Positions 46,630-49,460 of a stretch of DNA of 64,000 bases are shown in pieces. Made by a program: the position numbers and the translations under genes. Below the pieces are notes generated by a model, which was not told the origin of the DNA, did not search any database, and saw only the letters and a program-made list of their open reading frames with translations. Position 1 is the first letter of the stretch. The number at the start of each line of letters is the position of its first letter. This DNA comes from an uncultured Paracoccaceae bacterium (GTDB lineage: Bacteria > Pseudomonadota > Alphaproteobacteria > Rhodobacterales > Rhodobacteraceae), in the NCBI GenBank assembly GCA_947498645.1, contig CANMKS010000001.1:2952032-3016031 (forward strand), given 5' to 3'.

Positions 46630-46899
46630 ATGCCCAAGGCTATTCTTTATCGCATGGACCTACCGAACTATACATGTGGCTATGGGACGGCAGCACGCGA
46701 CCTGTTGCGGAAAGAAAACTACGAGATCGAAGAAAACATCTTGCGGACGCGGCGGGAAACAGATGCGTTCAAGGACAAGCACCATATCACGACAACACCG
46801 CTGATCTTTATTGACGGCGTAAAAATTGGTGGCTTTACCGATCTAAAGAAATACCTCAAGACCCAAAAACCACAGCCCAAGCGCCTTTGGAAGCGCTGA
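46630..46899 (+). CDS. glutaredoxin-like protein with a single active-site cysteine
   Basis: This 89-residue protein has the glutaredoxin fold (KAILYRMDLPNYTC..., ending TTPLIFIDGVKIGGFTDLKKYL with the TTP cis-Pro and GG-[FY] motifs). The active site reads TCGYGTA: Cys16 is present but the second Cys of CxxC is Gly19. Related proteins usually fuse this domain, with a CPSG site, to a MauE/DoxX-like membrane domain; here the C-terminus ends at KRLWKR without one. AAAGGAG precedes the ATG. Function is probably monothiol redox or metal transfer. Confidence 0.82.
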   Translation: MPKAILYRMDLPNYTCGYGTAARDLLRKENYEIEENILRTRRETDAFKDKHHITTTPLIFIDGVKIGGFTDLKKYLKTQKPQPKRLWKR

Positions 46900-46909
46900 T
46901 CAGGCGGAT

Positions 46910-46921
46910 TGACCGCGGTCA
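46910..46921. repeat. 12-bp perfect palindrome after the glutaredoxin gene
   Basis: TGACCGCGGTCA is fully self-complementary and lies 10 bases after the stop. It may be part of a terminator or an operator; the 260 bp that follow hold no gene. Confidence 0.35.
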
Positions 46922-47159
46922 GCAGTCATCACCCCCAATGTCAGCAATGCGGGCTGTGGCTGCGGCATCAAAATCTGGTGCGCAATGGCTGATTTGGCCC
47001 GATTGTCACCCGGATCCTAAGACCCCCTCACCCACCCGCGTGATGGGCCCGGCGGTTTGCCGGCACGGTGACACCTGCCAATTTACCGCCCCCTGCCCCC
47101 CTTTACGCCCGCGCGCCCAATCCCTATATGTTTGCTCAGGAATAAGAGGCTCATCGACC

Positions 47160-47522
47160 ATGACCGACGCAAACGCTCAGCTGGAAGGCGCACCAATGAT
47201 CGCCCCCTCCACCACCGACCACCCTTTGTACGACGATGTCGTCAAGGCCTGTCAGTCTGTCTATGATCCAGAGATCCCGGTGAACATCTATGATCTTGGT
47301 CTGATCTATACCATTGATATCAAAGACGATAATGCTGTGAATGTCATCATGACCCTCACTGCCCCCGGCTGTCCTGTCGCCGGCGAGATGCCCGGTTGGG
47401 TGGCTGACGCTATTGAGCCTTTGCCCGGCGTCAAACAGGTTGACGTTGAAATGACGTTTGAACCGCAATGGGGCATGGACATGATGTCGGACGAAGCCCG
47501 CCTTGAACTGGGCTTTATGTAA
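47160..47522 (+). CDS. sufT: SUF system iron-sulfur assembly protein (SufT/MIP18 family)
   Basis: This 120-residue MIP18/DUF59 protein helps mature Fe-S clusters. Typical blocks are VYDPEIPVNIYDLGLIY, MTLTAPGCPVAGEMPGWV with the conserved Cys, and VEMTFEPQWGMDMMSDEARLELGF. The ATG at 47160 is used; the open frame extends ~90 codons upstream into non-coding-looking sequence. The rest of the suf operon is not here, but sufA-like gene lies 1.6 kb downstream on the same strand. Confidence 0.93.
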   Translation: MTDANAQLEGAPMIAPSTTDHPLYDDVVKACQSVYDPEIPVNIYDLGLIYTIDIKDDNAVNVIMTLTAPGCPVAGEMPGWVADAIEPLPGVKQVDVEMTFEPQWGMDMMSDEARLELGFM

Positions 47523-47639
47523 ACTGCGATGCGCTGCCGCTAAAACGTACCATCGCCCTGATCCCTTGCGCGATCGGGGTATTGCGTCTTGCACTTGCCC
47601 CCGCCCCGCGCCAGCATGGCGACAAAACGCGAGGGGCCG

Positions 47640-48242
47640 ATGACCAATTATGCCGTTCTGACAGGCGATATCGTCAAATCTTCCCAGCTGCCCGAGGGCG
47701 GGCTGGATCGGATTTTTGCCAACCTGCAACATGCCGCGGATGTGATCGCAGGCTGGCAGGATGCCCCAACCTATCTGACCCGCAACCGGGGTGACGGCTG
47801 GCAAATGGCTGTTGCACCACGCTTTGCCTTGCGGGCCGTTTTTGCCGCCCGTGCGGCGGTGCGGATGGCGGACAAGCGCTTTGATACCCGCATTGCGCTG
47901 GCCATTGGCGATGGTACCATACCCGGACCTACGCTGGCAGATGCCCGTGGCCCGGTGTTCACCGCCTCCGGACAAGCGCTTGAGGCCATGCCCCGCCGCC
48001 GCGATATGGTTGTGGCCGGGGATCAAGGCACCCTCGCGATTGCCCTGCGTCTGTCCGAAGAGATCATCAAACGCTGGACCGAAGCCCAGGCCGCGGTGGC
48101 GCTGCGGGCGCTTGACCCGCTGGGGCCAACGCAAGAGACTATCGCCGCAGCCCTGGAGCTGTCGCAGCAAGGTGTGCAAAAACATATTGAAGCGTCAGGT
48201 GTGGATGCGTTGATCGACGTGTGCGAGGCGCTGGATGGGTAA
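47640..48242 (+). CDS. SatD family protein
   Basis: This 200-residue protein matches the SatD family: YAVLTGDIVKSSQLPEG at the N-terminus, RNRGDGWQMAV, RIALAIGDG and DARGPVFTASGQALEAM. The C-terminus holds a helix-turn-helix-like segment (GPTQETIAAALELSQQGVQKHI). SatD was first described as an acid- or stress-induced protein in Streptococcus; its activity is unknown. The ATG at 47640 follows GAGGGG. Downstream, after a striking array of half-sites, is a DUF3307 membrane protein gene, a recurrent neighbour. SatD may bind that array (inference). Confidence 0.85.
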   Translation: MTNYAVLTGDIVKSSQLPEGGLDRIFANLQHAADVIAGWQDAPTYLTRNRGDGWQMAVAPRFALRAVFAARAAVRMADKRFDTRIALAIGDGTIPGPTLADARGPVFTASGQALEAMPRRRDMVVAGDQGTLAIALRLSEEIIKRWTEAQAAVALRALDPLGPTQETIAAALELSQQGVQKHIEASGVDALIDVCEALDG

Positions 48243-48243
48243 G

Positions 48244-48338
48244 ATACAATCGGATTTGGGGGTTTCGATGCAATACAGCCTTAGAAGGTTGTATTTTGTT
48301 ACTACAACCTCATTTGGTTGTATTTTGACAAAACAACC
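48244..48338. promoter_or_regulatory. array of alternating half-sites before the DUF3307 gene
   Basis: Half-sites related to GGTTGTAT and its complement ATACAACC alternate: ATACAATC at 48244, weak GGGGGTTT at 48258, ATACAGCC at 48273, GGTTGTAT at 48287, CTACAACC at 48302, GGTTGTAT at 48316 and AAACAACC at 48331. Start-to-start spacing is 14, 15, 14, 15, 14, 15. It fills the gap between the SatD stop and the DUF3307 start, so it looks like a cooperative operator. Confidence 0.65.
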
Positions 48339-48350
48339 ACAGGCCATCCC

Positions 48351-49052
48351 ATGTTAACAACTGCCCTTGCCCTGATGCTGGCCCATGTGCTGGCTGATTA
48401 TCCGCTGCAAAACAGCTGGATTATCAACAACAAGAAAAAACCTGCCGCAATGGCGGCGCATATTGGTGTGGTGTTTCTGCTGACGATGCTGGCACTGCGT
48501 GGCCAGATCGCCCCGGCCCTGACAATCGCGGCTGCGCATTTGGGGATTGACCTGATCAAGACCCATTTCGCGCCGGAAACACTTTGGGCTTATGTCACTG
48601 ACCAACTGGCACATTTTGCCACAATCGCGGCCGTTCTCTGGTTCTCGCCCGCGCTGGGCGATCTCTGGCCAGAGGCCACGCCATTTATTCAGTATCTTCT
48701 TGCAATCGCCACGGGGCTGATCCTGTGCGTGCATGCCGGTGGGCCCGCTGTTGGCCTGCTCATGCAGGGGTTTGAGGAAAACCAGCCCCAAGGCCTGCCC
48801 CAGGCCGGGCGCATGATCGGCATTCTGGAACGCGCGCTGATCTTTCTGATGGTGCTTGCCGGGCAACCGACAGGTATCGGATTTCTGATCGCCGCCAAAT
48901 CGGTGCTGAGGTTTGACACCGCATCCAAGGATCAACGCGCCAGCGAGTATGTCATTATCGGCACGCTGGCCTCTTTCGGGTGGGCCTTGCTGGTCAGCTT
49001 TGCGACGCTTTCACTCATCACATTCTACGGCATTGATCCCACACCGTCTTGA
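48351..49052 (+). CDS. DUF3307 integral membrane protein
   Basis: This 233-residue protein has about six transmembrane helices. The DUF3307 signature lies at the N-terminus: LTTALALMLAHVLADYPLQNSWIINNKK, read in part as HVLADYPLQ, then HLGIDLIKT. The family is of unknown function and is often next to SatD genes. The ATG at 48351 follows an AGG-containing leader. Expression is probably controlled through the half-site array just upstream. Confidence 0.88.
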   Translation: MLTTALALMLAHVLADYPLQNSWIINNKKKPAAMAAHIGVVFLLTMLALRGQIAPALTIAAAHLGIDLIKTHFAPETLWAYVTDQLAHFATIAAVLWFSPALGDLWPEATPFIQYLLAIATGLILCVHAGGPAVGLLMQGFEENQPQGLPQAGRMIGILERALIFLMVLAGQPTGIGFLIAAKSVLRFDTASKDQRASEYVIIGTLASFGWALLVSFATLSLITFYGIDPTPS

Positions 49053-49097
49053 GCGACGGCCCCCGCTGCCCTACATAAGGGACAAAGGAGCACCACA

Positions 49098-49460
49098 ATG
49101 TTCGGCATCCCAGGCAAACAAGCGGTCAGCATCACCGACAAGGCAGCGGCGCAGATCGCCAAGCTGATGAACAAGGACGGCCATCAGGGCCTGCGCATTG
49201 GCGTCAAGAAAGGCGGCTGTGCGGGTATGGAATACACGATGGACTATGTGACCGAGGTTGATCCACTGGACGAAGTTGTCGAACAGGACGGCGCGCGGGT
49301 GATGATCGCACCGATGGCGCAGATGTTTCTTTTCGGGACCGAGATTGATTATGAGGTCTCGCTGCTGGAATCCGGCTTCAAGTTCCGCAACCCCAATGTG
49401 GTGGATGCCTGCGGCTGCGGCGAGTCGATCAAGTTCGACGAAAACATCAGCGCAAGCTGA
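49098..49460 (+). CDS. sufA: iron-sulfur cluster assembly accessory protein (SufA/IscA type)
   Basis: This 120-residue A-type carrier receives and passes Fe-S clusters. The three conserved cysteines are present: KKGGCAGMEY and VDACGCGESI. The AAAGGAG before the ATG is strong. It overlaps the next gene by one base (TGATGG), so transcription with the TfoX-N and tpiA genes is likely. Confidence 0.95.
   Translation: MFGIPGKQAVSITDKAAAQIAKLMNKDGHQGLRIGVKKGGCAGMEYTMDYVTEVDPLDEVVEQDGARVMIAPMAQMFLFGTEIDYEVSLLESGFKFRNPNVVDACGCGESIKFDENISAS

Follow-up and report, generated by a model that had tools for sequence, protein, structure and literature searches.

In an uncultured Paracoccaceae bacterium, the gap between a satD-like gene and a gene for a membrane protein carries a strictly periodic array of half-sites, which is highly likely to be the operator of the adjacent SatD, a putative one-component regulator of the membrane gene. 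SatD very probably binds this array, given that the half-site letters follow its predicted recognition helix, that the geometry recurs, and that the array is specific to this locus. The window, i.e. the whole stretch of DNA analyzed here, comprises 64,000 nt of the forward strand (GCA_947498645.1, contig CANMKS010000001.1, positions 2,952,032 to 3,016,031), and the following genes surround the array:

46887 to 47522, forward strand: open reading frame with a FeS_assembly_P domain (Pfam), SufT-like; its true start is probably later
47640 to 48242, forward strand: satD-like gene, an open reading frame of 200 amino acids with a predicted N-terminal class III cyclase-like domain and a C-terminal helix-turn-helix
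48351 to 49052, forward strand: membrane protein gene, the putative target; 233 amino acids from the ATG at 48351, 12 predicted helices
49098 to 49460, forward strand: A-type Fe-S carrier gene, ErpA/SufA-like (Pfam)

An earlier, sequence-only reading of this DNA had described up to seven related 8-mers of alternating orientation in the gap, 14 and 15 bases apart, and this description is exact: the 8-mers start at 48244, 48258, 48273, 48287, 48302, 48316, and 48331, i.e. in steps of 14, 15, 14, 15, 14, and 15. Taken as 6-mers, they form seven half-sites in strictly alternating orientation between 48246 and 48338, with a 6-N6-6-N11-6 geometry and a period of 29, and four of the seven are perfect matches to ACAACC when read in one orientation:

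48246 to 48251, forward strand: half-site 1, ACAATC, 5/6 match to ACAACC
48258 to 48263, reverse strand: half-site 2, GGGGGT, 4/6 match, the most decayed
48275 to 48280, forward strand: half-site 3, ACAGCC, 5/6 match to ACAACC
48287 to 48292, reverse strand: half-site 4, GGTTGT, 6/6 match
48304 to 48309, forward strand: half-site 5, ACAACC, 6/6 match
48316 to 48321, reverse strand: half-site 6, GGTTGT, 6/6 match
48333 to 48338, forward strand: half-site 7, ACAACC, 6/6 match, 12 nt upstream of the membrane gene start (ATG)

At an arm step of 12 and a period of 29 the gap scores 33 out of 36, a value reached by none of 5000 dinucleotide shuffles, and when all geometries were scanned it scores 36, which none of 300 shuffles reached (shuffle maximum 29). 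Half-sites 1 and 2 are clearer in the two closest relatives (L031 and L032; ACAACC and GGGTGT), with some changes in the others, and pairwise differences are rarer within half-sites (6–7 of 42) than outside of them (16–23 of 66). The 220 bases upstream of the window satD hold nothing array-like (12/24, no better than satD coding DNA). Since the array of the window stands before the membrane gene only, SatD should control its partner, rather than itself, in this genome. The odd number of half-sites (seven) does not fix the pairing unit as N6 or N11.

Relatives of this locus were collected through searches for DUF3307 (PF11750), the Pfam domain covering residues 6–103 of the membrane protein (E 6.2e-14, 52.5 bits, cut-off 23), and for SatD. 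A DUF3307 gene was found in 41 of 198 genomes of the family and in 24 of 56 genomes of the same genus; we took the best 30 places of the 41 family genomes (L001–L030), the remaining 23 of the 24 genus matches (L031–L053), and the best 80 of 244 SatD relatives from a search of genome contigs (L054–L133). Because the best-scoring places were taken, this set is biased towards relatives of the window. In each of its 133 loci satD and the membrane gene are neighbors, with a SatD homologue directly upstream of the DUF3307 gene in 53/53 loci from the DUF3307 searches and a DUF3307 gene directly downstream of satD in 80/80 best loci of the SatD contig search. At below 80% SatD identity, 102 non-redundant loci remained, of which 92 have a SufT-like homologue upstream of satD and 100 an A-type Fe-S carrier homologue downstream of the satD-DUF3307 pair. 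A class-wide SatD profile search matched 8 of 385 genomes, five of these matches being partial and probably unrelated.

The geometry of the array was surveyed over the 102 non-redundant loci with a geometry-only detector of two palindromes with 6-bp arms, for which arm step and period were scanned over the 160 bases preceding satD and over the satD-membrane-gene gap (the target regions). The grid peaks at a step of 12 and a period of 29, with a mean score of 26.06 (grid median 17.7, sd 1.26), while the 37 loci scoring below 24 at period 29 peak at step 12 and period 30 with a mean of 27.1. Using periods of 28–30 and no sequence preference, the target regions of 89/102 loci reach a score of at least 26. 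When whole loci were scanned, the best match fell ahead of satD in 73 loci, within the gap in 18, and outside both places in 11, i.e. in the target regions in 91/102, these regions representing 5.7% of the sequence; matches scoring 26 or more numbered 89 in the target regions vs 4 elsewhere, and in four of the 102 loci such an elsewhere match outscored that of the target regions. When a CA core was mildly favored, 93 loci passed a four-half-site test, with periods of 29 (65 loci), 30 (24), or 28 (4) and two (43), three (38), or four (12) palindromes per array. By eye, two to four half-sites can be recognized in eight of the nine failing loci, and the last (L111) is doubtful; all nine were left out of the covariation counts below. 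In two loci (L064 and L067), a single outward-facing half-site pair with an 11-bp spacer is visible, which suggests that an N11 pair can be a minimal site.

Within the 93 passing loci, the array stands before satD with no real gap between the genes in 56, before satD only with a gap present in 6, confined to the gap in 18 (including the window), and in both places in 13. Starts of satD had been taken from the alignment and often lay some residues late, and the in-frame ATG was therefore located directly for upstream arrays: it follows the array by 0–3 nt in 54 of 72. The half-site letters differ between clades, with ACAACC or ACAGCC in that of the window and, for instance, GCAAGC, GCANCC, GCAAAT, GCAAGG, or TCAAGC elsewhere. 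The sequence-only reading had looked to the gaps of relatives for conservation of both half-sites and spacing: the geometry is indeed widely kept, whereas the letters are not kept in wider relatives.

This change of letters follows the SatD protein. We compared every well-occupied SatD column with nine half-site positions across the 93 loci, and the two top residue-base pairs linked residue 176 to base 1 (0.93 bits) and residue 181 to base 5 (0.86 bits), the next value being 0.55. These residues occupy the first and sixth positions of the predicted recognition helix, encoded in the window as follows:

48165 to 48197, forward strand: recognition helix, codons 176–186, a DSSP helix on the predicted model
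48165 to 48167, forward strand: codon of Q176, specificity residue of the top covarying residue-base pair
48180 to 48182, forward strand: codon of K181, specificity residue of the second covarying pair

Across the 93 loci, base 1 is G with R176 in 69/69, A with Q176 in 11/11, and T with P176 in 5/5 and with A176 in 2/2, the rarer cases being T-T (1), H-G (1), K-A (3), and K-T (1). Base 5 is C with K181 in 26/26, and G with Q181 in 31/32, A181 in 7/8, Y181 in 6/6, and D181 in 4/4; rarer combinations are G-C (3/3), R-C (2/2), N-A (2/2), S-G (5), S-A (3), M-G (1), and E-G (1). Helix columns are richer in signal than the other SatD columns (0.69 vs 0.31, Mann-Whitney p 0.007). The fifth-highest pair value belongs to I36, a column of the N-terminal domain, and some signal of shared ancestry is therefore present. 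When base identity was evolved along the DUF3307 tree as a null model, however, none of 2000 simulations reached the values observed for 176-base 1 or 181-base 5, nor that of residue 178 with base 4. Base changes on this tree number about 16 for base 1 and about 17 for base 5. The main covariation tables used CA-core seeds; a rerun without the CA preference moved four loci (in place or register) and gave R-G in 66/66, Q-A in 9/10, K181-C in 25/25, and Q181-G in 31/31.

The correspondence was also assessed in loci outside of this set, taken from a search with the SatD family model (PF16264) across the phylum, from DUF3307 genes in an order of another class, and from one Sphingomonas plasmid. 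Seventeen loci were reduced to 15 by leaving out L141, which occupies the place of L154, and L160, where no SatD could be found. The loci found with the PF16264 model (L134–L141, 5/8 over its cut-off) mostly share the array geometry. An array scoring 24 or more lies by satD or in the gap in 14/15 loci, although three are weak (L134 and L154 score 24, L156 scores 23) and a score of 24 arises in 0.7% of single-period scans of shuffles; the array of L138 has a 5-bp spacer. Scored by eye, base 1 was predicted correctly in 8/11 testable loci, the misses (L139, L140, and L151) all carrying R176, while L134, L136, and L137 have V or L at 176, for which there is no rule. Base 5, likewise scored by eye, was predicted correctly in 11/14 loci, with misses in L139 and L140, where the R181-C rule fails, and a tie for K181-C in L153. 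The L139 and L140 loci break both rules, with TCACAT or TCACAA arrays and R-S-N-V-S/T-R helices, and the DNA contacts may differ there. The plasmid locus, L151 (Sphingomonas insulae, NZ_CP048421.1, 1–5621), carries a satD-DUF3307 pair whose TCAACC array is perfect, with a period of 28; the pair is flanked by TIR and ImmA/IrrE genes and, on the other side, by genes annotated as a Pycsar effector, an E2-associated protein, and a cyclase.

Within the window genome, the two-palindrome pattern at up to three mismatches is present at the satD locus alone. A wider regulon was considered and rejected: three half-sites at three mismatches matched three other places, vs four for a reversed-pattern control. 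Among the 56 genus genomes, a degenerate window-type pattern occurs at the satD locus in nine, which are exactly those with Q or K at residue 176 among the 24 with a DUF3307 match; elsewhere the scan found two single places with three mismatches each, and the reversed control pattern matched one genome. Together with the residue-base covariation and the presence of the geometry beside satD in other orders and classes, this near-exclusive locus strongly supports the earlier proposal that SatD would bind the array.

Other explanations of the array fare less well against these data. Its repetitive look alone could suggest chance or a mobile repeat, a reading refuted by the shuffle test (0/5000) and by recurrence beside satD in 89–93 of 102 loci with differing letters, and whose probability we consider negligible. 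The palindromes might instead act as RNA hairpins in termination or attenuation between the two genes, and the one at 48272–48295 is indeed a terminator-like hairpin. Yet the arms of the same palindrome (core agreement 0.96/0.90/0.98/0.78/0.73/0.63, n 248) agree no better than arms of different palindromes at the same locus (0.96/0.92/0.98/0.74/0.72/0.67, n 458); there is therefore no stem-specific pairing constraint, which favors a DNA-bound protein. The arrays also mostly precede the first gene (72/93), where 54/72 end 0–3 nt before an ATG, and no Rfam match was found in 47400–49200. With neither stem-specific arm agreement nor an Rfam match, the hairpin reading is largely refuted and extremely unlikely. 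A protein other than SatD may also be considered as the reader, since a regulator whose gene lies elsewhere might use a site next to this conserved pair, with SatD a mere neighbor, and some columns of the SatD N-terminal domain also correlate with the half-site. This is very unlikely: the two best columns lie in the SatD recognition helix, the correlation survives the tree null, and about 16 site changes tracking SatD, as well as an array confined to a single locus per genome, would be unexpected of a global regulator.

If SatD reads the array, its likely target is the neighboring membrane gene, as the sequence-only reading had also suggested. The evidence is positional, with the array in the target regions in 91/102 loci and the two genes always adjacent (133/133), and from this SatD quite likely controls the membrane gene. 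Repression is the probable direction of this control. The last spacer of the array resembles TATAAT (at least 4/6) in 31/72 upstream arrays vs 14/72 for the preceding spacer, and in the period-30 class it reads TATATT, TATTAT, TATAAT, or ATTATA in 21/24 loci. A TATAAT-like spacer next to an ATG is suggestive of a leaderless promoter lying within the operator, from which we infer repression by occlusion. A sigma-70 promoter scan of the window passed no promoter and the -10-like spacer is weak in the array of the window itself, and repression by occlusion is therefore least certain there.

SatD could instead activate upon binding, or form a structural scaffold that spreads along the DNA. Usual repressor arrays sit on the same face of the DNA, whereas a period of 28–30 bp does not correspond to whole helical turns, so that successive SatD molecules should wind around the double helix; in the window, moreover, 12 nt separate the last half-site from the ATG, and the scan revealed no consensus promoter. 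Against this, where a promoter can be guessed, half-sites lie on either side of the -10-like spacer and reach the start codon, i.e. the position of a repressor, and activation or scaffolding is on this evidence unlikely.

The window SatD was modeled with high confidence (AlphaFold2 pLDDT 95.8, pTM 0.92), and the predicted N-terminal domain has a class III cyclase fold by model, profile, and fold comparison: a profile match to the class III adenylyl cyclase Ma1120 (E 0.006), Foldseek matches of the model to Ma1120 (4wpa, E 2.2e-4) and Rv1900c (1ybu, E 2.6e-4), and one hhalign comparison of SatD with up to 29 cyclase domains from relatives (probability 93, E 2.4e-7). The metal aspartates D10 and D52 align to the cyclase D and GD motifs and are invariant in 81 SatD sequences. 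Class III cyclases rely on an Asn-x3-Arg transition-state pair for catalysis. This catalytic Asn/Arg pair is absent from the aligned SatD stretch, SG..L(D/E), where the local register is uncertain by about one residue. SatD thus shares with Ma1120 and Rv1900c the fold, the profile match, and both metal aspartates, but differs in lacking the Asn-x3-Arg pair and in being a bare 200-residue protein that ends in a helix-turn-helix. Based on this model, the N-terminal domain is probably a sensor pseudo-cyclase that binds a nucleotide or a metal, and on balance we favor ligand sensing by this domain.

At the other end of the protein, the proposed helix-turn-helix is borne out by the predicted helix 176–186 and by helix-turn-helix families matching up to 22 of 45 aligned relatives (best E near 3e-4); among PDB sequences, the C-terminus is best matched by a zinc transport regulator (5yi0, E 0.005). 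A sensor-like domain and a helix-turn-helix would hence be combined in one chain, in which the N-terminal domain presumably does the sensing, and the covariation suggests that the helix-turn-helix reads the operator of SatD itself, as in a one-component factor. SatD resembles the one-component repressors of the GntR, IclR, and MarR families in this combination and in an operator beside its own gene. Unlike these, it has a class III cyclase-like sensor, arrays of 4–8 alternating half-sites with a fixed 28–30 bp period, and apparently a single local target. Correlations between factors and their sites have reportedly been studied in the GntR, IclR, and MerR families, and a survey of actinobacterial cyclases is on record (PMC2447327).

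The family name derives from the sat genes of Streptococcus mutans, linked to acid tolerance, as cited in PMC11323703. The PF16264 model does not match the window protein at E up to 1 and matches 4/45 aligned relatives (best E 6.1e-7), while PF16264 loci elsewhere in the phylum, like the window, carry arrays by satD. In the literature searched, from which subscription papers were mostly absent, we found no DNA-binding role, operator, or cyclase-like domain described for SatD, and no paper treating SatD and DUF3307 together; the SatD family as such appeared in a single annotation paper. The earlier statement that SatD is a family without known activity thus holds as far as a described function goes in that literature, whereas its N-terminal domain is now seen to be class III cyclase-like.

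The membrane partner was modeled with 12 helices (pLDDT 94), and its fold has no PDB match below E 1.4. The DUF3307 half contains conserved His and Asp residues, and the C-terminal half conserved E, R, K, and S; the latter corresponds to a separate domain:

48666 to 48998, forward strand: C-terminal domain of the membrane protein, about residues 106–216, with no Pfam match found

In five of the out-of-family loci (L134–L138), the gene after satD, which encodes a short membrane protein, matches this C-terminal half alone (hmmsearch E 2e-17 to 2e-13 within the five-sequence set; by hhalign, E 3e-15 for the C-terminal part vs 0.54 for the N-terminal part). Since this half is what these partners have in common, the sequence comparison suggests that the constant partner of SatD is this unannotated domain rather than DUF3307. 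The DUF3307 half (48354–48644, residues 2–98) matches a phage membrane protein family of moron genes (phrog_2470, E 3.5e-15), and thus occurs in phages; in the literature searched, DUF3307 is named once, in a jumbo phage gene table (PMC8504454). A tblastn search of the window DUF3307 protein against phages gave no match, no SatD relative was confirmed on viral contigs, and a plasmid search returned one record for the window SatD and none for that of L138.

Pycsar systems pair a cyclase with a membrane or TIR effector. The satD locus is similar in that a cyclase-fold protein is paired with a membrane protein, and the L151 copy adjoins an annotated Pycsar effector and cyclase; it differs in the missing catalytic pair, in the DNA-reading helix predicted on SatD, and in the absence of PADLOC matches (0 at E up to 0.1 for the window SatD, the window DUF3307 protein, and the L151 pair). 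SatD could by analogy be a nucleotide-sensing pseudo-cyclase repressor that silences a potentially harmful membrane effector until a nucleotide signal, e.g. upon phage attack or envelope stress, releases it from a spiral operator, a Pycsar-like logic in which transcription replaces direct effector gating; we regard this proposal as improbable. Two single observations fit it, namely the defense neighborhood on the Sphingomonas plasmid and the essentiality of satD in Streptococcus pyogenes, whereas the lack of a PADLOC match and the usual chromosomal neighbors, Fe-S genes, speak against it. According to PMC11323703, satD is essential in several S. pyogenes strains while being accessory in the population (about 71% of complete genomes). 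Such a pattern would be expected if satD repressed a harmful partner. In PMC5786311, satD is lowered by lysozyme in the transcriptome of one Streptococcus gallolyticus strain.

We therefore propose SatD as a small one-component regulator whose C-terminal helix-turn-helix would read 6-bp half-sites and whose N-terminal class III cyclase-like domain would probably dimerize and sense a ligand, perhaps a nucleotide, while making no cyclic nucleotide. SatD molecules would fill successive half-sites 6 and 11 bp apart, at a period of 28–30 bp and possibly in a cooperative manner, and the array so covered would extend over promoter and start codon, either those of the membrane gene or those of a satD-membrane-gene operon, such that the membrane gene would most likely stay repressed until SatD meets its ligand. 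Compared with what was first claimed, the finding is wider, extending to what appears to be a conserved operator array and a legible SatD code. A protein family hitherto known by name only thereby receives a specific and testable activity, and a two-letter recognition code, relating residue 176 to base 1 and residue 181 to base 5, largely predicts operators in other bacterial classes. A class III cyclase fold has apparently been adopted as the sensor of a transcription factor. The finding also offers a possible reading of why satD can be essential though accessory.
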